DNA of 64,000 bases from Anaerolineae bacterium. GTDB taxonomy: Bacteria > Chloroflexota > Anaerolineae > SpSt-600. The position numbers were made by a program, and so were the translations under genes. The stretch lies in NCBI GenBank assembly GCA_025062375.1, contig JANXAG010000005.1, positions 1 to 64,000 of the forward strand, given 5' to 3'. The notes beneath the pieces are model-generated. The model had not been told where the DNA came from. It was given only the letters and a program-made list of their open reading frames with translations, and ran no database searches. Every line of letters starts with the position of its first letter. The first letter of the stretch is position 1. Shown here piece after piece: positions 54,209-64,000 of the stretch.

Positions 54209-57200
54209 ATGGAAAAAGTACTGCTCAGGGTAAAGTTATTGCCTCCGCGTCTATCAGAACGGGTGCTGGCCCGCCCGCGTCTTACCCAGCAACTTCTTGA
54301 AGCCTTAAATTACCGCCTAACCATCCTCCGGGCAGGAGCCGGATACGGCAAGAGCACGGCCTTAGCCAGCTTAGCCGGGCAAGGGATCCCTTACGTGTGG
54401 TATCAGTTGGAGCGAGAGGACAGCGACCCTGTAACTTTTTTAACTTACCTGGCTCACGGCTTCCGCTCCCTTTTCCCCGATAGCCTGGAGCTGGCCCTGG
54501 CTTTCCTGGAAGAAAGTAGCGGACACTTCCCCCTGGTTCAGCTTGTGGACATTTTACTGGATGAGCTGGCGGCAAAGATTGCTTCTCCTCACCTGCTCAT
54601 TCTGGATGACGCCCATTTCCTTAAAGGTTCTTCAGAAACTTTAAGCCTTCTGGACCGCTTTATCGCTCATTCCCCACCAGATTTGCACACGATCCTCTCA
54701 ACCCGCTATGTGCTTAACCTCCCAACCCTAGTCCGGTGGAAAGCCCATGGGGAAGTTTTAGAGATTCACCAGGAGGATTTGGCCTTTAAACCTGAGGAAA
54801 TAGGGGCTCTTTTTGCTCAAAAATACAGGCTTTTTCTAACCTCTTCCGAGATTGCTTTTTTAGCGGAGCGAACGGAAGGATGGCCTATTGCACTGCAGTT
54901 AATTGGAAAGGCTCTTCAGAGGCACAGCGCTTCCAGCCTTTCCGAAGCCCTTAAGCAGGTGACTGGCCCAAGTGAAAGCCTCTTTTCATATCTGGCTCGG
55001 GAGGTTTTAGAGCAATTAGAACCGAGAATGCAGGATTTCCTCCTCAAGACGGCCGTGCTGCAGGATTTATCGCCTGCCATTTGCGATTGTTTGCGCGAGG
55101 CTGATGATAGCGCTTCTATAATAAACTACCTTGTAGAAAATGGCCTTTTTATTGTAAGTTTAGGCGAAGGGCTCTTCCGCTACCACCATTTGTTCCGGGA
55201 ATTTCTTTACCACCAATTATCACCTCAGGAAGCACAACAGGCCCACATGCGAGCTGCCAGGTGCTTTGTTCAGAGGGGCGACGAAGCAAGAGCTGTCCAC
55301 CACTTTCTTGCTGCCCAGGCTTGGGAGGAAGCCGCTGCGATCTTGGAAAGCCTGGGCCGAGATATGGTGCAGGCTGGGCGTCTTGAAGTCCTCTCCAATT
55401 GGCTCGGAATGCTTCCACCTAAGGTTCTGGCATCTCATCCGGCCCTGCTCATATATCTGGGAGACATCGCTCGCCTCCGAAGCCGCTTCCATGAAGCTCT
55501 CGGCTGGTATCAGCAAGCCGAAGAACGCTACCGCCTCAGAGGTGATAACAGAGGTGTTGGCCAGGCACTGCGGGGTAAAGCTCGTGTTTATCTGGACACT
55601 GTCAACCCTGTCCAGGCAGAGCGATACCTCCAAGAAGCTTTGCGCCTTGCTGATGGGCAAGAAGACCGGGAGAGCTTTGCTCGTCTTCTGGAACTCTTAG
55701 CAGAAAATCAGTTAAATCTGGGCCGTCCGGAGGAGGCTGAGCGCCTGCGAGCACAGGCTCGCACCCTTCGGGAAGAAGGACCAGGCGAAGCCGAATTAGC
55801 CATCCGGGTGCTTCTGCGCACAGGTCGGCTCAATGAAGCCCGTCGTTTGCTGGAAGAGCAGGCGGAAAGAGAGCGTCGGGAGCCTATTCTCAGACCACGG
55901 GCTCACCGGGAGACGCTGCTCCTTTTATCCCTGATTTTAGCTTTCCAAGGAGAACCTGAAGCTGCATATCAGTGCGCTGTAGAGGGCACTAAGAGAGGTC
56001 AACTTCTTCACTCCCCCTTTGTGACCGCTGTGGGGTATATGCGGCAGGGGCATTCCTGGCTTATCCGGGATAATCCGGATGGTTACTCTCATGCCTATCG
56101 CTGTTATCAGGAAGCCATCGCTTTAGGCGAAGATTTGGCAGTGCCACGCCTTAAGGTAGAAGCTTTCTGGGGCCTCTGCCGAGCTCATGGCTTTCAGGGA
56201 GAACTGGAAGCCGCTTTAGAGGCGGCCCGTCAAGGAATAGAGATCGCACAACAGGCAGGAGATGAATGGATAACGGCCCTGATCCGGGTTTCTATGGGAG
56301 CAGGATATGTCCTGGCTGGCGAATATAGCCTGGCGTTGGACTGGCTTACGCAGGCCCTCACAGCTTTCAGAGAGTGCAGTGACCCCTATGGGGAAGCCGT
56401 TGCCCGGCTTTGGCTTTCTCTCATATGGTGGCACAAAAACGACAAAGCTCGGCTGAGGCGAGATGCCGAAGAACTCCTTCGCCTGGTCCACAACCATGGC
56501 TATGATTACCTTCTCACCAAACGCACCCTCTTAGGGCCTCCTGACCCCCGCATGGTGGTTCCGATTCTGCTTTATGCCCGCAGTTCTGGTCTGCATCCTG
56601 CCTGCGTAGAGCGCCTCCTTCGGACTATGGGCTTGGAGAAGGTGGAATTCCACCCGGGATATCAGTTAAAAATCCAGACTTTGGGGCCGTTCAGAGTATG
56701 GCGGGGGAACAAGGAAATACTCCCGCTGGAATGGCGCCGTGAAAAGGCCAGAAGACTCTTTCAACTTCTCCTGACTTACCGGCACACCATGCTGGATCGG
56801 GACCAGATCCTGGAGATGCTCTGGCCCGGCTTGGAGCCTGAAACAGCTAAACGAGATTTTAAGGTAGCCTTGAGCACTCTCTGTAAGGTTTTGGAGCCCG
56901 AACGTTCAGAAGGGGCGCCTTCCGCCTATGTCCTTCGGGACGGCTCTCATTATGGGTTGAGGCCTGGTGCCGATATATGGCTGGATGTGGAGGAAATGGA
57001 AAAGGAAATAGCTTGCGGAGATAAACTCTTCAAGCAAGACCCCAGCAAAGCCCTAGAACATTACCAGCGGGCCTTAGCCCTTTATCAGGGAAATTATCTG
57101 GAGGATTGCCTTTACGAAGCCTGGTGCAGCGAAGAAAGAGAAAGAATTCTTATCCTTTACCTGCGCACTGCCGATAAAGTGGTCGAACTTTTGGCTCAGA

Positions 57201-57433
57201 AAGAGGCCTGGGAAGAGGTTTTAACGGTTTGTCGGGCTATATTAGCTCGTGATCCTTGCTGGGAGCAGGCCTATCGCTGGACAATGTTAGCCTACGCTCG
57301 AACAGGCCGCAAGGCTCAAGCCCTCAAAACTTTCAGACAATGCGCAGAAATACTCCAGAAAGAACTTCAGGTAGACCCTTCTCCCGCCACTATTCAGCTT
57401 TACGAAGAAATCCGCAATGACCGCCTTAAGTAA
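54209..57433 (+). CDS. STAND ATPase-TPR-BTAD transcriptional regulator
   Basis: A 1074-residue regulator. The N-terminal MalT-like STAND ATPase has Walker A GAGYGKST (43-50) and ILDDAHF (131-137), then RTEGWPIALQLIG and RYHHLFREFL typical of MalT/LuxR-type STAND proteins. Residues about 380-800 are TPR-like helical repeats. From about 819 comes an OmpR-like winged-helix domain (LGPFRVWRGNKEI, RREKARRLFQLLL, DQILEMLWPG), then a bacterial transcriptional activator (BTAD) domain to the end. SARP-family activators have that last pair, but normally at the N-terminus. Here it is C-terminal, where MalT has its LuxR domain. The ATG at 54209 follows AAGGAGG. The open frame reaching 53819 is antisense to the ABC ATPase and not coding. 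GTAAC repeats right behind the gene are its likely target. Confidence 0.9.
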   Translation: MEKVLLRVKLLPPRLSERVLARPRLTQQLLEALNYRLTILRAGAGYGKSTALASLAGQGIPYVWYQLEREDSDPVTFLTYLAHGFRSLFPDSLELALAFLEESSGHFPLVQLVDILLDELAAKIASPHLLILDDAHFLKGSSETLSLLDRFIAHSPPDLHTILSTRYVLNLPTLVRWKAHGEVLEIHQEDLAFKPEEIGALFAQKYRLFLTSSEIAFLAERTEGWPIALQLIGKALQRHSASSLSEALKQVTGPSESLFSYLAREVLEQLEPRMQDFLLKTAVLQDLSPAICDCLREADDSASIINYLVENGLFIVSLGEGLFRYHHLFREFLYHQLSPQEAQQAHMRAARCFVQRGDEARAVHHFLAAQAWEEAAAILESLGRDMVQAGRLEVLSNWLGMLPPKVLASHPALLIYLGDIARLRSRFHEALGWYQQAEERYRLRGDNRGVGQALRGKARVYLDTVNPVQAERYLQEALRLADGQEDRESFARLLELLAENQLNLGRPEEAERLRAQARTLREEGPGEAELAIRVLLRTGRLNEARRLLEEQAERERREPILRPRAHRETLLLLSLILAFQGEPEAAYQCAVEGTKRGQLLHSPFVTAVGYMRQGHSWLIRDNPDGYSHAYRCYQEAIALGEDLAVPRLKVEAFWGLCRAHGFQGELEAALEAARQGIEIAQQAGDEWITALIRVSMGAGYVLAGEYSLALDWLTQALTAFRECSDPYGEAVARLWLSLIWWHKNDKARLRRDAEELLRLVHNHGYDYLLTKRTLLGPPDPRMVVPILLYARSSGLHPACVERLLRTMGLEKVEFHPGYQLKIQTLGPFRVWRGNKEILPLEWRREKARRLFQLLLTYRHTMLDRDQILEMLWPGLEPETAKRDFKVALSTLCKVLEPERSEGAPSAYVLRDGSHYGLRPGADIWLDVEEMEKEIACGDKLFKQDPSKALEHYQRALALYQGNYLEDCLYEAWCSEERERILILYLRTADKVVELLAQKEAWEEVLTVCRAILARDPCWEQAYRWTMLAYARTGRKAQALKTFRQCAEILQKELQVDPSPATIQLYEEIRNDRLK

Positions 57434-57472
57434 CCATTTTGTAACTTTTTTGTAACCGCCCCATGTTATCCT
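57428..57472 (+). promoter_or_regulatory. SARP-like direct repeats and promoter of the acyl-CoA operon
   Basis: GTAAC occurs at 57430-57434, 57441-57445 and 57452-57456, exactly 11 bp apart, the last two inside TTTTGTAAC/TTTTTTGTAAC. A TGT-TATCCT extended -10-like box lies at 57464-57472. Taking the third repeat as a heptamer (57452-57458), 8 bp separate it from the -10 hexamer. The -35 region is inside the repeats. SARP activators are known to bind heptamer direct repeats at 11-bp spacing over the -35 region. The first repeat overlaps the regulator's stop codon. Confidence 0.65.
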
Positions 57473-57495
57473 CTTTCCTGCGAGGAGGTAAGGCT

Positions 57496-58260
57496 ATGCG
57501 TCTCAAAGACCGCGTTGCTCTGATTACTGGTGGAGCTATGGGCATAGGTCAGGCCACTGCTTTCCGCTTTGCCGAGGAAGGAGCGGTGGTTATCATCTGC
57601 GATGTGAATGAGGAGGCAGGCCGCCGAACAGCGGTGGATTTGGGAGATGAAACCCGTTTTTACAAAGTAGATGTTACTGACAGGAAAGCGGTTCAGGCCT
57701 GGGTAGACGACGTTGTCGCCCGATACGGCAGGGTTGATATACTTGTGAACAATGCCGGTATCCTCCGGGATGCCCTGCTGGTGAAATACAAAGATGGTCA
57801 AGTGGTAAGTCAGATGTCCGAAGAGGACTTCGATCGGGTAATTGCTGTTAACCTTAAGGGAGTTTTCAACTGTACTCAGGCCGTTGTGCCTTACATGATC
57901 CGGCAAGGCGGAGGGGTCATCCTCAATGCTTCCTCGGTTGTAGGAATAGATGGTAATTTTGGTCAAACCAATTACGTTGCTTCCAAAGCTGGTGTTATCG
58001 GGATGACCAGGGTCTGGGCCAGGGAACTGGGAAGATACAACATCCGGGTTAACGCGGTAGCACCGGGCTTTATTCTGACCGATATGGTCCGCCAGATGCC
58101 GGAAAAAATCCTGGAACTTATGAAAAGCCGTATCCCCCTGGGCCGTCTGGGCGATCCACGGGATGTTGCTAACGCCTACCTGTTCCTGGCTTCTGATGAA
58201 GCCTCTTACATAACCGGTGCTGTGCTAAGGGTAGATGGGGGAATCGTGGTAGGCACCTGA
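57496..58260 (+). CDS. Short-chain dehydrogenase/reductase (FabG-like)
   Basis: A 254-residue classical SDR. The cofactor motif is TGGAMGIG near residue 12, NNAG is near 87, the catalytic Ser in LNASSVVG, and Y-x3-K in NYVASKAG near 158. VDGGIVVG closes the protein. D39 after the second strand (IICDVNEE) suggests NAD rather than NADP. It would oxidise a hydroxyacyl group or alcohol, or reduce the ketone. GAGGAGGTAAGGCT precedes the ATG at 57496. It is the first gene of the acyl-CoA operon behind the GTAAC repeats. Confidence 0.9.
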   Translation: MRLKDRVALITGGAMGIGQATAFRFAEEGAVVIICDVNEEAGRRTAVDLGDETRFYKVDVTDRKAVQAWVDDVVARYGRVDILVNNAGILRDALLVKYKDGQVVSQMSEEDFDRVIAVNLKGVFNCTQAVVPYMIRQGGGVILNASSVVGIDGNFGQTNYVASKAGVIGMTRVWARELGRYNIRVNAVAPGFILTDMVRQMPEKILELMKSRIPLGRLGDPRDVANAYLFLASDEASYITGAVLRVDGGIVVGT

Positions 58261-58270
58261 AGGAGGAAGA

Positions 58271-59797
58271 ATGATTGTTGGTGACTGGCTCGGACGCCGG
58301 GAACTACTTACCCCCAACAAGGTTGCCCTGATAGATACGCTGAAGGGCCATCGTCCCATAACTTATCGAGAATGGAGCCGAACGGTTAACCGCACCGCCC
58401 GTTTCCTTCAGGAGCGTTTTGGAGTTCGCAAAGGCGATAGAGTGGCTATCCTGGCTCACAATTGTGTGGAGTATTTAGATCTCTGGTTTGCTCTGGGCCG
58501 TATCGGTGGAATTATGCAGACTCTGAACTGGCGCCTTACCCCTTACGAGCTGGAAAGCCTGTTGGTTGATGGGAGGCCAGTAGCCCTGGTCTACGGAAGC
58601 GAATTCACCTCCCAGGTCAATGCCCTGCGGGGCAAAGTGCCTGAACTCCGTTATTACATCGCCCTCGGGGAAAAGGCAGCCCCAGATGATGTGGCCTTTT
58701 CTGAACGCGAATCCTTCTCAGACCATCCTCTTCCAGAAATAGACCTGGATTGGAATGATCCGTGGGTTATTTGCTACACCGGCGGGACCACAGGTTTTCC
58801 GAAAGGAGCTGTTCTAACTCACCTTTCCATCACAGCTAACGCCGTTAACACTATTGTCTCATGGGGTCTTACCCCCGATGATGTGGCAATCCTGAATGCT
58901 CCCCTCTTCCACACAGGTGGCCTGAACGTCTTTACCGCTCCTCTCGTTTATATCGGAGGCACTAGTATTGTCTGCAAAACCTTTGATCCCGACCAGGTGT
59001 TTGACCTAATCCGTGATGCAGGGGTGACAGTGTTCTTCGGTGTTCCTACAATGTTCATTATGCTTCAGCAGCATCCGCGATGGGAAGAAGCCGATTTTTC
59101 TCGCCTCAAAATTGTGATAAGCGGCGGCGCGCCCTGCCCGATGTCCGTATTTGAGAAGTTCTGGGAGCGAGGGGTTAATTTCAAGACAGGCTATGGCCTT
59201 ACTGAGGCCGGCCCTAATACCTTCTGGCTCCCTCCGGAAGATGTCCGACGCAAGCCTGGTTCTGTGGGTTTTCCTCTCTTCCATATTGACTTGAAAATAG
59301 TGCGGAGCGATGGAACCGAATGCGGTCCAGAAGAAGTAGGAGAACTGCTCATCCGTGGGCCTCATGTCTGCGCTGGTTACTGGAATAACCCTGAAGCTAC
59401 AGCTCAGGCTTTTCGGGATGGGTGGCTTTACACTGGCGACCTGGCTAAACGTGATGCTGAAGGCTATTACTACATAGTTGGGCGAATCAAGGACATGTTC
59501 ATTTCCGGAGGCGAAAACGTTTATCCTGCCGAAGTTGAAAGCGTCCTCCATGCCCATCCAGCAGTAGCTGAAGCCGCAGTCATAGGAGTACCCGACCCCA
59601 AATGGGGAGAAGTGGGCCGGGCTATTGTAGCCCTTCGCCCTGGTTTCTCCGTCACTGAAGAAGAACTAATAGCTTTCTGCCGGGAGCGATTGGCCAGCTA
59701 CAAAGTTCCCAAGTCTTTCGTCTTTTTGGAAGCTTTGCCCAAAACAGGAGCAGGCAAAATAGATAAGGAGCGTCTGAAAAAGGAATACGGCTCATAG
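58271..59797 (+). CDS. AMP-dependent acyl-CoA ligase (first copy)
   Basis: A 508-residue ANL-superfamily enzyme that activates a carboxylic acid as acyl-AMP and then acyl-CoA. Motifs in order are CYTGGTTGFPKG (168-179), GYGLTEAGP near 310, YTGDLAKRD near 390, GRIKDMFISGGENVYP near 410, and the adenylation Lys in TGAGKIDK near the end. Chain length of the substrate cannot be told. AGGAGGAAGA precedes it 10 nt after the SDR stop. A second ligase of the same family lies three genes downstream. Confidence 0.92.
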   Translation: MIVGDWLGRRELLTPNKVALIDTLKGHRPITYREWSRTVNRTARFLQERFGVRKGDRVAILAHNCVEYLDLWFALGRIGGIMQTLNWRLTPYELESLLVDGRPVALVYGSEFTSQVNALRGKVPELRYYIALGEKAAPDDVAFSERESFSDHPLPEIDLDWNDPWVICYTGGTTGFPKGAVLTHLSITANAVNTIVSWGLTPDDVAILNAPLFHTGGLNVFTAPLVYIGGTSIVCKTFDPDQVFDLIRDAGVTVFFGVPTMFIMLQQHPRWEEADFSRLKIVISGGAPCPMSVFEKFWERGVNFKTGYGLTEAGPNTFWLPPEDVRRKPGSVGFPLFHIDLKIVRSDGTECGPEEVGELLIRGPHVCAGYWNNPEATAQAFRDGWLYTGDLAKRDAEGYYYIVGRIKDMFISGGENVYPAEVESVLHAHPAVAEAAVIGVPDPKWGEVGRAIVALRPGFSVTEEELIAFCRERLASYKVPKSFVFLEALPKTGAGKIDKERLKKEYGS

Positions 59798-59811: not shown

Positions 59812-60618
59812 ATGCCAAGGATGAAGGTGAACGACATAGAAGTTGCGTATGAAGTGACCGGGGACGGTCATCCACTGGTTTTAATTACCGGTGTTGGTTA
59901 CGGACGTTGGTTCTGGCACAAGATTGTGCCTGACCTTGCAAAACATTTTAAGGTGATTACCTTCGACAACCGGGGGGCAGGCGAAAGCGATAAGCCCCCG
60001 GGCCCCTACACTACGAAGATGATGGCTGCTGACACCGCAGGGCTCCTGGATGGCCTCGGAATTAGCAAGGCTTATGTAATGGGTCACTCCCTTGGAGGGT
60101 TCATTGCCCAGGAATTAGCTTTAGCCAGGCCAGAGCTGGTAGAAAAGCTGGTTCTGGCTTCCACCACCTACGGAGGCCCCAATGTTATCCCCATTACCCC
60201 GGAAGCCCTTGAAGTTTTGACCAAGCGAGATGGTGATCCAGTAGAATTGGTCCATAGAGGAATCAAGGTAGCTTGTGCTCCTGGTTTCGCTGAGCGCCAT
60301 CCAGAAATAGTCAAAGAACTCCTGGAGTACCGTCTGACCAATCCTGTGCCGCCGGCTCAGTATCAGGCTCAGGTTATGGCTGGCGCCACCCATAACGCTG
60401 AAGATCGCATTTCACAAATCACTTGTCCTGTGCTGATTCTCTTCGGCGAACATGATAAAGTGGTCCCTCCTGGCAATGCAGAGCTTCTGGCCAGAAAGCT
60501 TCCCAACGCTCGGGTGAAAATCATCCCCAATACAGGCCACATCTTTCCCATAGAAGACCCGCAAGCTACTATAAGGGCTTTACTGGAGTTCCTGAAACCC
60601 GATGTGGAGGCTGGCTAA
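59812..60618 (+). CDS. Alpha/beta-fold hydrolase (first copy)
   Basis: A 268-residue alpha/beta hydrolase with a full triad: S93 in GHSLGG, D215 in FGEHDKVVP and H243 in PNTGHIFP. DNRGAGESDKP near residue 53 is the usual loop. It may cleave an ester, lactone, thioester or C-C bond. 3-oxoadipate enol-lactonase and meta-cleavage hydrolases look alike at this level. AAGGAGGTCTAA precedes the ATG. Its stop overlaps the next start by one base (TAATG). Confidence 0.88.
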   Translation: MPRMKVNDIEVAYEVTGDGHPLVLITGVGYGRWFWHKIVPDLAKHFKVITFDNRGAGESDKPPGPYTTKMMAADTAGLLDGLGISKAYVMGHSLGGFIAQELALARPELVEKLVLASTTYGGPNVIPITPEALEVLTKRDGDPVELVHRGIKVACAPGFAERHPEIVKELLEYRLTNPVPPAQYQAQVMAGATHNAEDRISQITCPVLILFGEHDKVVPPGNAELLARKLPNARVKIIPNTGHIFPIEDPQATIRALLEFLKPDVEAG

Positions 60619-61610
60619 TGCGTCATGTGCGTATCGTTGCCACCGGAAGTTATGTGCCTGAAAGAGTGGTAACCAACGAAGAGATAGACGAAATACTGGG
60701 CGAGAAAACCAGTGACTGGCTTATAGAAAACGTGGGCATCCGCCAGCGCCATTGGATGACCCCTGATCAAACCACTTCTGATCTGGTGGTGGAGGCTTCC
60801 AAGAGAGCACTGGAACGGGCTGGCATTCGCCCTGAAGACCTGGACCTCATTATAGTCTCCACCGACACCCCAGATTATATCTCCCCTTCCACTTCCGCGG
60901 TGGTGCAATATAAGCTGGGCGCAGTAAATGCTGGCTGCTGGGATGTAAACAGCGCTTGTGCTGGCTGGGTCACTGCCCTGGATCAGGGTGCCCGCTACAT
61001 AATGACCGAACCATCAATGCGCTACGTCTTAGTAGCGGGGGGCTATGGAATGAGCCGCTTCCTGGACTTTAAAGACAAGAAAACCGCTAACCTCTTTGCC
61101 GATGGAGCTGGGGCTGTAGTGCTCGGCCCGAGTCAGGAGCCAGGGTTCCTGGCGAGCCAGTTTCTGGCCAGAGGTGAATACCATGACGCCCTGGGCATTT
61201 ACACCGGTGGGACTTTCAGACCCTGTACCCCGGAAAACCTGGAAAAGTATGGCCCTCCGCGAGTCCAATTCATCAAAAAATTCCCCCGCACCTTTAACAC
61301 CGAGTATTGGCCATGGCTCATCCAGAAAGCTCTGGAAAAGGCAGGCCTCACTGTAGAAGATGTGAGCCTCTTCCTCTTCACCCAGCTCAACCTGCGCACT
61401 ATTGAATTGATGATGCAAATTTTGGGTCAACCGATGGAGAAAACCCACTGGATAATGGACAAATGGGGCTATACAGGCTCGCCCTGTGTGGCAATGGCGC
61501 TGGATGATTTAATCAATCAGGGGCGAGGACCCAAACCAGGAGATATCATTGTCTTCTGCACCAGCGGCGGTGGTATCACGATGGCTGCCTCTGTGTGGCG
61601 GTGGATATAA
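60618..61610 (+). CDS. Ketoacyl-ACP-synthase-III-like protein with incomplete triad
   Basis: A 330-residue thiolase-fold protein of the FabH/HMG-CoA-synthase group. The nucleophile C114 is kept in NSACAGW. The position of the FabH His (in HQAN) reads T255-Q-L-N, and the Asn of GNTSAA reads Y285 in KWGYTGSP. Only the Cys of the Cys-His-Asn set remains, so ordinary decarboxylating condensation is unlikely. Related proteins that transfer or cleave acyl groups through the Cys alone are the nearest idea. It lies between two hydrolase/ligase pairs. Confidence 0.85.
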   Translation: MRHVRIVATGSYVPERVVTNEEIDEILGEKTSDWLIENVGIRQRHWMTPDQTTSDLVVEASKRALERAGIRPEDLDLIIVSTDTPDYISPSTSAVVQYKLGAVNAGCWDVNSACAGWVTALDQGARYIMTEPSMRYVLVAGGYGMSRFLDFKDKKTANLFADGAGAVVLGPSQEPGFLASQFLARGEYHDALGIYTGGTFRPCTPENLEKYGPPRVQFIKKFPRTFNTEYWPWLIQKALEKAGLTVEDVSLFLFTQLNLRTIELMMQILGQPMEKTHWIMDKWGYTGSPCVAMALDDLINQGRGPKPGDIIVFCTSGGGITMAASVWRWI

Positions 61611-61626: not shown

Positions 61627-63177
61627 ATGTATGTGGGAGATTACCTCGGCCGAAGAGCTATTTACAGCCCGGATAAGGTGGCTATAATTGATGCCGGAAA
61701 ACAACCTCCATGGCGCCTCACCTATCGCCAACTTAATGAACGAGCTAATCGCTTCGCTAACTGGCTCCGCAGTTCAGCAGGAATCAAAAAGGGCGATAGG
61801 GTAGCTATTCTGGCCCGGGATGGGGTAGAACACCTGGACTGCTTTTTCGCCTGCTCCAAACTTGGCGCCATTCACACCGCTCTCAACTGGCGTCTCCATT
61901 GGCGAGAACTGGTAGAAATAATCCGCAAAACTACTCCCACCGTTCTTATTTACTCCGGCGACTTCCGGGATAACGTTGCTCAGCTTCAGGCTGCGATTCA
62001 GGGCACAGAATATGCTATACGTTACTACCTCCATATAGAAGGTGAAGGTATAGAGGGAAGCTTGCATTTTGAAACCACACTCCAGAGCAGCCCTGCGCAG
62101 CCTGTTACCTGCGAAACCGTGGAAGCTGAGGACATCGTCGCTCTGATCTTCACAGGAGGCACCACGGGCTTTCCTAAAGCCGCTCAAATTTCCCACCGGA
62201 TGATAGCCTGGAACACTCTCAATACCATCATTCATGACCTCACCCACAATGACATTTACCTTAACGTCTTCCCCATGTTCCACACGGGGGGCCTTTTTGT
62301 CTATACCCTGCCACAAATCATCATGGGCGGCACCACCATCCTGATCCGCCAGTTTGATCCGGCTCTTGTGCTCAGGCTGATAGAACAGGAAAAGGTTACC
62401 GTCTTTGCTGCTGTGCCCACGATGTATCAAATGATGGCTCAGGCCCCGAACTGGGAAGAAGCTGACCTTTCCTCCCTCAGGTTCTGCACCAGTGGTGGGG
62501 CTCCTCTGCCTGTGCCGCTGATAGAAAAATACACACGCGAAAAAGGAATCCGCTTTAAACAGGGTTTTGGGATGACAGAATTCGGCCCTGGAGTTTTCGC
62601 TTTAGCTCCCGAAGATGCCATCCGTAAGGCCGGCTCTATTGGGCGCCCGAACTTTTTCGTGGACGTTCGCATCGTTGATGATGAAAACCGTCCCTTAGGC
62701 CCTAACCAAATTGGGGAACTGGTGCTTAAAGGCCCCTCCATATGCTCTGGCTATTTTGGTGACCCCGAAGCCACAGCCAATATGCTGGATGAAGAAGGCT
62801 GGTTCCACACGGGCGACCTCGCCTATTATGATGAGGAGTGGTATTTTTACATCGTAGATCGCAAGAAAGACATGTTCATCTCAGGCGGGGAAAATGTTTA
62901 CCCGGTGGAGATAGAAAAAGTCCTCTACGAACATCCGGCCGTGCACATGTGCGCTGTCATTGGCGTGCCAGACCCCAAATGGGGGGAAGTTGGGTTGGCC
63001 TGCGTTGTCCTGAAGCCCGGAACAACGGCCACCGAGGAAGAGCTCATCGCCTTTCTCAGGGAGCGCCTGGCCAGCTACAAAGTCCCCAAGCGAATAGTGT
63101 TTATGGATAGCCTTCCTATTTCAGCAGCAGGCAAAATCCTTAAGAGAGAACTGCGAAAACAATTTGCTGGAGAATAG
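61627..63177 (+). CDS. AMP-dependent acyl-CoA ligase (second copy)
   Basis: A 516-residue ANL-family acyl-CoA ligase clearly related to the one at 58271. Motifs are FTGGTTGFPKA near residue 180, GFGMTEFGP near 315, HTGDLAYYD near 396, DRKKDMFISGGENVYP near 415, and the Lys in SAAGKILK near the end. The ATG at 61627 follows GGGGGAGAAAATTCC. An upstream extension would run back into the preceding gene. The two ligases in one operon may activate different acids of the same route. Confidence 0.92.
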   Translation: MYVGDYLGRRAIYSPDKVAIIDAGKQPPWRLTYRQLNERANRFANWLRSSAGIKKGDRVAILARDGVEHLDCFFACSKLGAIHTALNWRLHWRELVEIIRKTTPTVLIYSGDFRDNVAQLQAAIQGTEYAIRYYLHIEGEGIEGSLHFETTLQSSPAQPVTCETVEAEDIVALIFTGGTTGFPKAAQISHRMIAWNTLNTIIHDLTHNDIYLNVFPMFHTGGLFVYTLPQIIMGGTTILIRQFDPALVLRLIEQEKVTVFAAVPTMYQMMAQAPNWEEADLSSLRFCTSGGAPLPVPLIEKYTREKGIRFKQGFGMTEFGPGVFALAPEDAIRKAGSIGRPNFFVDVRIVDDENRPLGPNQIGELVLKGPSICSGYFGDPEATANMLDEEGWFHTGDLAYYDEEWYFYIVDRKKDMFISGGENVYPVEIEKVLYEHPAVHMCAVIGVPDPKWGEVGLACVVLKPGTTATEEELIAFLRERLASYKVPKRIVFMDSLPISAAGKILKRELRKQFAGE

Positions 63178-63185
63178 GAGGTAAT

Positions 63186-64000
63186 ATGCCTCACCTGGAA
63201 GGGATTAAATCTCAGATAATTCAAACTTCCCGGCTCAAGATGCACGTTCTTACAGCGGGACCAGATGACGGCACCCCGGTCATTTTTATCCACGGCAATG
63301 GGGCGTCGTCTACATTCTGGGAGGAAACGATGGTTTCTCTCCCGCCTGGCTTCCGAGCTATAGCCCCCGATATGCGCGGATACGGGGAAACAGAACCTGC
63401 GCCAATAGATGCTACTCTCGGTCTGGGGGATATGGTGGAGGACATCCGCTCCCTGGTAGAAGCAATGGGAATTAAGAAGTTCCATATCGTTGGCCACTCC
63501 ATGGGGGGCGGAATCGCCATGAAATATGCCATCGCTTACCCTCAAGACCTTCTATCCATGACCCTAGTGGCAACAATGTCTCCTTACGGCTACAGTGGTA
63601 GCAAGGATGTAGATGGAACCCCATGTTACGACGATGGCGCTCCGGCTGGGGCAGGCAGCGTTAACCCTGAATTCGTCCGGCTCCTCAAGGAAAAAGACCG
63701 CAGCACCGATAACCCTATGTCTCCCCGCAACGTGCTGCGCCAGTTTTACTTTAAACCGCCCTTCATTCCAGCGCGGGAGGAAGAGCTCCTCGAGGCTTTG
63801 CTTTCAATGCGAATAGGTGAGGACTGGTATCCGGGCAATTTTGTCCCCTCCCCTCACTGGCCTGGGGTCGCCCCTGGAAACCGAGGTGTCATAAACGCCA
63901 TTAGCCGAAAATACTTCGACGCAAGCGGTATAGTTGAAATCCAGCCCAAACCTCCGGTGCTCTGGGTCCGAGGTGCCGATGATCTGGTAATTTCCAATAG
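63186..64000 (+). CDS. Alpha/beta-fold hydrolase (second copy), cut by the window edge
   Basis: An open frame of 271 codons running off the window end, so it has no stop here. AGGAGGTAAT precedes the ATG. IFIHGNGASSTFW near residue 33, DMRGYGETEPAP near 67 and the nucleophile elbow VGHSMGGG near 103 mark an alpha/beta hydrolase. LWVRGADDLVIS at the edge would hold the acid residue, and the His must lie beyond. It is longer in the cap region than the hydrolase at 59812, so the substrate probably differs. It is the sixth gene of the acyl-CoA operon. Confidence 0.85.
   Translation, partial: MPHLEGIKSQIIQTSRLKMHVLTAGPDDGTPVIFIHGNGASSTFWEETMVSLPPGFRAIAPDMRGYGETEPAPIDATLGLGDMVEDIRSLVEAMGIKKFHIVGHSMGGGIAMKYAIAYPQDLLSMTLVATMSPYGYSGSKDVDGTPCYDDGAPAGAGSVNPEFVRLLKEKDRSTDNPMSPRNVLRQFYFKPPFIPAREEELLEALLSMRIGEDWYPGNFVPSPHWPGVAPGNRGVINAISRKYFDASGIVEIQPKPPVLWVRGADDLVISN

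Follow-up and report, generated by a model that had tools for sequence, protein, structure and literature searches.

The window, i.e. the whole 64,000-nucleotide stretch of DNA analysed here, carries a large regulator gene on the plus strand (54209..57433, hereafter REG). Its 1074-aa product combines a MalT-like STAND ATPase, a TPR region, a winged helix and a BTAD, as indicated by Pfam, NCBIfam, AlphaFold and Foldseek. REG is followed on the same strand by an operon whose first gene (57496..58260) encodes a FabG-like SDR oxidoreductase (NCBIfam FabG at cut-off). The next genes, all on the plus strand, encode an AMP-forming acyl-CoA synthetase (a, 58271..59797; Pfam AMP-binding, 1.3e-86), an alpha/beta hydrolase (59812..60618; Pfam), a KAS III-like (FabH-like) condensing enzyme (60618..61610; Pfam, NCBIfam), a second acyl-CoA synthetase (b, 61627..63177; Pfam) and a second alpha/beta hydrolase (63186..64000), which was read from the contig sequence and sits at the window end. 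The operon runs on beyond the window to contig position 72961 and comprises 14 genes in total, with no gap larger than 16 bp. Past hydrolase 2 lie genes for an acyl-CoA synthetase c, a MaoC dehydratase, a hydrolase 3 and a complete Liv-type ABC transporter (substrate-binding protein, two ATPases and two permeases).

At the junction between REG and this operon, three GTAAC words start at 57430, 57441 and 57452, with a period of exactly 11 bp. The distal repeat, GTAACCA (57430..57436, plus strand), is an accessory third copy and holds the TAA stop of the REG ORF (57431-57433). It is followed on the same strand by core repeat 1, TGTAACTT (57440..57447), and by core repeat 2, TGTAACCG (57451..57458), the latter identified from the window sequence, the PWM described below and the relatives. 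The GTAACCG heptamer of core repeat 2 (57452-57458) is separated by an 8-bp gap, CCCCATGT, from the TATCCT hexamer (57467-57472) of an extended -10, TGT-TATCCT (57464..57472, plus strand, with its TG at 57464), an assignment that agrees with the TGNTA found at offset 23 in relatives. A leader with the Shine-Dalgarno sequence GAGGAGGT (57483..57495, plus strand) precedes the SDR start codon at 57496. A scan of the junction for a sigma-70 -35/-10 pair and for a terminator found neither, and the promoter is therefore considered to have no -35; the missing standard promoter is expected, since the promoter is taken to be activator-dependent. The original prediction had placed three GTAAC words at this spacing over the -35 region, with the first overlapping the regulator stop and the third heptamer 8 bp from an extended -10. 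Each of these points holds in the window, where the coordinates are identical.

By chance, 0.01 matches to the triple pattern would be expected in the window when up to two mismatches are allowed. In its exact form, the triple has a single copy in the 2.15-Mb genome, and the reversed control gave none. GTAAC is found 65 times in the window on both strands, and it forms no 11-bp pairs other than those of the array itself. Other GTAAC pairs in the same genome were dropped as sites, having no -10 at the right distance and PWM scores of at most 10.6.

Architecture and recognition helix of the regulator

The N-terminus of REG, approximately residues 5-484, is a MalT-like STAND ATPase (NCBIfam MalT, 8e-72, below the curated full-length cut-off), and the middle part is a TPR region with TPR profile matches. 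REG thus has the N-terminal ATPase and TPR sensor of the MalT/LAL proteins, but its C-terminus is a winged helix plus BTAD instead of a LuxR-type HTH. An OmpR-type winged helix at about 820-918 stands directly before the BTAD at 925-1069 (Pfam, 3e-27). On the winged helix, Trans_reg_C reached 17.3 bits against a cut-off of 26.2, i.e. below it, and residues 818-1068 match NCBIfam AfsR below the curated cut-off. The AlphaFold model of residues 815-1074, built from an alignment of 46 homologues, has a mean pLDDT of 96.9, and its best Foldseek matches were AfsR (TM 0.80, E 2.5e-12), in the structure of AfsR within a transcription activation complex, and EmbR (TM 0.83, E 2.2e-10). In addition, phmmer matched REG to AfsR at 4e-11.

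The C-terminus of REG thus shows the order of winged helix and BTAD typical of the SARP family in the model, in Foldseek and in Pfam, which bears out the predicted pair of SARP-type DNA-binding domain and BTAD in the adjacent gene. Because of the BTAD match, the AlphaFold and Foldseek results and the phmmer match to AfsR, the DNA-binding half of REG is regarded as a SARP domain with a modelled AfsR/EmbR fold, at the protein end opposite to that in AfsR. REG is nevertheless not a classical SARP, since two defining features, the N-terminal domain position and the actinobacterial antibiotic setting, do not apply: its domain pair lies at about 820-1069 of 1074 residues, and all 79 homologue records (79/79) are from Chloroflexota, with acyl-CoA and Liv targets instead of the secondary-metabolite clusters of Actinomycetota. 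It is a MalT-like STAND protein with a C-terminal SARP domain.

AfsR contacts DNA through R87, T88, S91, R92, R94 and K95 (PMC10936776), which in the alignment correspond to REG residues 885, 886, 889, 890, 892 and 893, respectively. The recognition helix is near-invariant in REG, with R882 in 71/72 and K885 in 70/72. The position of AfsR T88 is V/I, that of R92 (890) is T/A and that of R94 (892) is Y/N/C; because T88 and R92 are replaced in this way, the AfsR contacts are not transferable to REG. The conserved DNA-contact set of Streptomyces SARPs (Q48, W74, P79, T88, R94 and K95) was also compared. W74 and P79 have counterparts in W872 (46/46) and P877 (37/46), the K95 counterpart is partly K/R among the REG homologues, and the alignment of Q48 is uncertain.

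A sister clade of regulators, most of them 36-44% identical to the query L022, which is itself 29% identical to REG, has R at 890 and 892 like AfsR and S/G at 882. Tandem words at 11 bp were found in seven of about 30 sister-clade loci, two of them near-identical. A pairing of recognition helix and operator word between the clades would fit these sequences, on weaker evidence. The tandem repeats stand after the sister-clade genes, at 11 bp in L150, L155, L162, L168, L170, L172 and L177, and in 12-bp versions in L152, L154 and L160. Their words are GTAAAT, GTGACT, GCTAAAC, GTGAGT and GTAAGG, and the -10 follows at nearly the distance seen in the GTAAC clade.

Conservation of the array and its assignment to REG

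The comparison set consisted of 79 named loci of REG homologues, 1.24 Mb in all. Every record came from Chloroflexota, and most of the relatives are MAGs. Orthologues in the class of the window, class membership being the GTDB class given by kinship labels, have the array beside the same acyl genes. GTAAC pairs around the 79 homologues occurred 48 times at period 11, against 0-2 for each of the other periods between 6 and 33. These 48 sites were chosen on the GTAAC pair alone, the -10 not being used in the selection, and in 29 of them TGNTA stood 23 bp from the first core GTAAC, against 0-2 cases at nearly all other offsets; in five sites, those with one further repeat, the offset was 34. Each GTAAC word shows a preference for T before and Y after it, and the site consensus in relatives is TGTAACY-N4-TGTAACY-N6-TG-N-TATnnT.

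A PWM trained on the 29 sites from relatives, with the window excluded, gave a single match above 8 in the 64-kb window, at 57440-57472, with a score of 38.4. On the reversed sequence of the 79 loci its maximum was 12.8. Sites above 14 were present in 61/79 loci; many of these are degenerate, hence their position outside the training set. In the remaining 18/79 REG loci the PWM detected no site, and about one third of those contigs stop at or very near the junction. GTAAC-like triples 8 kb from the 38%-identical REG proteins of L047 and L048 lack a -10 and were left out of the count.

Column information at the third-repeat position is about 0.1 bit or less. Exact triples occur in few relatives (L117, L082, L064 and L067), with degenerate ones in L121, L123, L129 and L143. 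The conserved core thus consists of the two -10-proximal repeats, the stop-overlapping third copy being confined to a minority; of the predicted three repeats, the triple is exact in the window and only two copies are generally conserved. The overlap with the stop codon recurs all the same, since the first core GTAAC supplies the regulator TAA in five relatives (L072 at 3601, L084 at 13189, L095 at 5816, L136 at 5980 and L140 at 3514). Where the stop codon lies inside a GTAAC word, as in these five relatives and in the third word of the window, the putative operator is partly coding.

Comparison of the junction in relatives had been set beforehand as a refutation test, and it showed the array beside orthologues across Chloroflexota, with the same 11-bp period and an unchanged distance to the -10. 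With its two core copies beside the same large regulator gene, the array has the marks of a conserved switch. In SARP operators as described, direct repeats recur every 11 bp over the -35, and 8 bp separate the 3' repeat from the -10 (PMC10936776). This arrangement is found in the window and in the relatives, and the proposed SARP-activator geometry matches the published spacing exactly.

Sites were located within 1.5 kb of REG in 59/79 loci; the 18 loci of paralogous regulators, whose flanks are similar, had none (Fisher p = 2e-9). Among 60 related genomes, the full pattern was present in 8/12 with REG and 1/48 without it (Fisher p = 1.6e-6). Both tests treat genomes as independent, and both p-values are optimistic because the genomes share ancestry. 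REG was present in 16/19 pattern-positive genomes, and class-wide pattern matches numbered 20, mostly ahead of acyl genes, against one in the reversed control. The sites precede a divergently transcribed operon in L041, L044 and L085 and mark the second operon of the cluster in L091, L103, L111, L116, L126, L132 and L137; in G003, G034 and G041, site and REG are on different contigs. As judged from these positions, the sites track acyl-gene promoters and not the REG 3' end. Full-pattern sites without a REG orthologue occur in three genomes (L064 in G023, L067/L070 in G224 and L051 in G260); these cases suggest either another regulator able to read the site or MAGs in which REG is missing. The tandem words in L064 number at least three.

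SDR orthologues 69-87% identical to the first operon gene come after the site in many relatives, and 66/81 sites in relatives lie less than 700 bp before an acyl-cluster gene. Among the other 15/81, those next ORFs that were read look by inspection like transport, acyl-CoA or PHA-type genes, and several run off the contig. Neither phosphate genes nor a response regulator turned up among the neighbours read at these sites. Together, the locus and genome comparisons favour the predicted pairing of the array with the adjacent regulator and, with sites following acyl-gene promoters in relatives, the tie between this regulator and the acyl-CoA operon, to which REG would bind at the array. The simplest reading of the common theme would be carboxylic-acid uptake and processing via CoA esters.

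By inspection, operator-like sites also precede ORFs resembling PHA synthase and enoyl-CoA hydratase (L089 at 4503, L134 at 13320), CoA transferase and biotin carboxylase (L131 at 4159, L072 at 3600) and, at some further sites, Liv-type binding proteins. The enzyme neighbours hint at a wider acyl-CoA/PHA regulon. At 40 sites, the first gene 3' of the operator encodes a small protein of about 60-110 aa that starts MSETVISSFxLRF and bears the motif WRGVVRHVQSDEE (for example L071 4224-4400, L085 9591-9827 and L117 13278-13466). This protein matched nothing in Pfam or NCBIfam, and its gene is absent from the window.

Proposed mechanism and rival explanations

The array is real and conserved, and taken together these features largely support the original proposal, in which it would work like a SARP operator. 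Very probably, the array serves as operator for a promoter that depends on an activator: REG, encoded next to it, would bind there through its C-terminal SARP-type domain and switch on the 14-gene operon. We infer REG binding, activation and the nature of the inducer as follows. The STAND ATPase/TPR part would sense an inducer, for which the probable candidates are the carboxylic acids or acyl-CoAs that the operon handles, and this MalT-like part would gate activation by inducer and ATP. Two, and here up to three, SARP domains would then sit side by side on one helix face at the 11-bp-spaced TGTAACY repeats, where, by analogy with AfsR, they would occupy the missing -35 region and keep RNA polymerase on the extended -10, which lies 8 bp downstream. 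REG would in this way turn on Liv-type uptake of acyl substrates, their activation with CoA and their conversion.

Direct repeats with an 11-bp period over the -35 are also bound by response regulators of the OmpR type, among them PhoB and PhoP, and the geometry by itself therefore does not identify the binding protein. The array might accordingly be the box of another OmpR-type regulator, PhoB/PhoP-like for instance, with REG an incidental neighbour. Pho boxes have this direct-repeat geometry in place of the -35, Streptomyces PhoP and AfsR bind the same DNA (PMC10972967), and three genomes have the site without REG. The distribution of sites, at 59/79 REG orthologues and 0/18 paralogues, and their genome co-occurrence with REG speak against such a box, as do targets that are acyl-CoA and transport genes with no phosphate genes among them, which makes this explanation unlikely.

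It is very unlikely that REG binds the array as a repressor, or that the array is a leader element working at the RNA level. The operator does overlap the promoter, but there is no -35 and the repeats lie 5' of a fixed extended -10, upstream of any transcript starting from it; moreover, known members with BTAD or MalT architecture are activators, and AfsR is described as one (PMC10936776). There is hardly any chance that coincidence or coding constraint made an AT-rich spacer beside a TAA stop read GTAAC three times. The stop codon does fall within the first copy, and the spacer is rich in T, but far less than one triple is expected per genome, and relatives have the array in spacers rich in GC, between divergent genes and ahead of other operons. 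Conservation at fixed spacing refutes this reading.

A 2024 review places SARPs exclusively in actinobacteria (PMC10972967), and a search of the literature, with most subscription papers outside it, found no SARP operators from Chloroflexota. Chances are roughly even that Chloroflexota have their own large activator class, in which sensors of the MalT-like STAND type bear a C-terminal SARP domain and govern operons for catabolism and transport via 11-bp direct-repeat operators at a fixed distance from an extended -10, subfamilies reading different words (GTAAC, or GTGAG/GTAAG/GTAAA-type words in several sister-clade members). If so, SARP-type activation would be no actinobacterial antibiotic speciality. 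For the GTAAC array, a SARP-type operator, its probable regulator and its targets can be predicted from sequence alone across a largely uncultured phylum. The predicted regulon, for the uptake of carboxylic acids and for acyl-CoA metabolism, is directly open to testing, and there is a natural set of recognition helix and operator word pairs from which a recognition code for the fold might be read. The search pattern also assigns targets to otherwise unannotated giant regulators.

Comparison with known systems

MalT and the LAL proteins of the STAND class resemble REG in the N-terminal ATPase and TPR sensor but end in a LuxR-type HTH where REG has a winged helix and BTAD, and MalT boxes differ in kind from the 11-bp GTAAC array. 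PhoB and PhoP share an OmpR-type winged helix, and their Pho boxes the 11-bp direct repeats in place of the -35, but they are response regulators with a receiver domain that act on phosphate genes through a different word. EmbR of Mycobacterium tuberculosis (PDB 2FEZ/2FF4) has the same winged helix and BTAD (TM 0.83); it belongs to Actinomycetota, bears an FHA domain and is without STAND and TPR parts.

PimR, of the SARP-LAL type, likewise joins a SARP domain to a LAL-type ATPase, and its main operator has three heptamers at 11 bp, two of which are enough for binding (PMC5930380). The two-repeat core of the array is likened to PimR on that account. However, the SARP domain of PimR is N-terminal, its main operator lies clear of the -35 and its word is different. 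In AfsR of Streptomyces coelicolor (PDB 8HVR, 8K60, 8JKE; PMC10936776), the winged helix and BTAD (TM 0.80) share one polypeptide with STAND ATPase and TPR parts, as in REG, and the afs box, like the array, places two direct repeats with an 11-bp period over the -35 region, beside the -10. The domain order is reversed, however, the SARP domain being C-terminal in REG, and the base-contact residues T88, R92 and R94 are not kept. The afs box reads CGTT(T/C)ATCG next to a weak -10, whereas TGTAACY stands here next to a strong extended one, and AfsR serves antibiotic control in Streptomyces, whereas REG would serve acyl-CoA metabolism and Liv transport in Chloroflexota.
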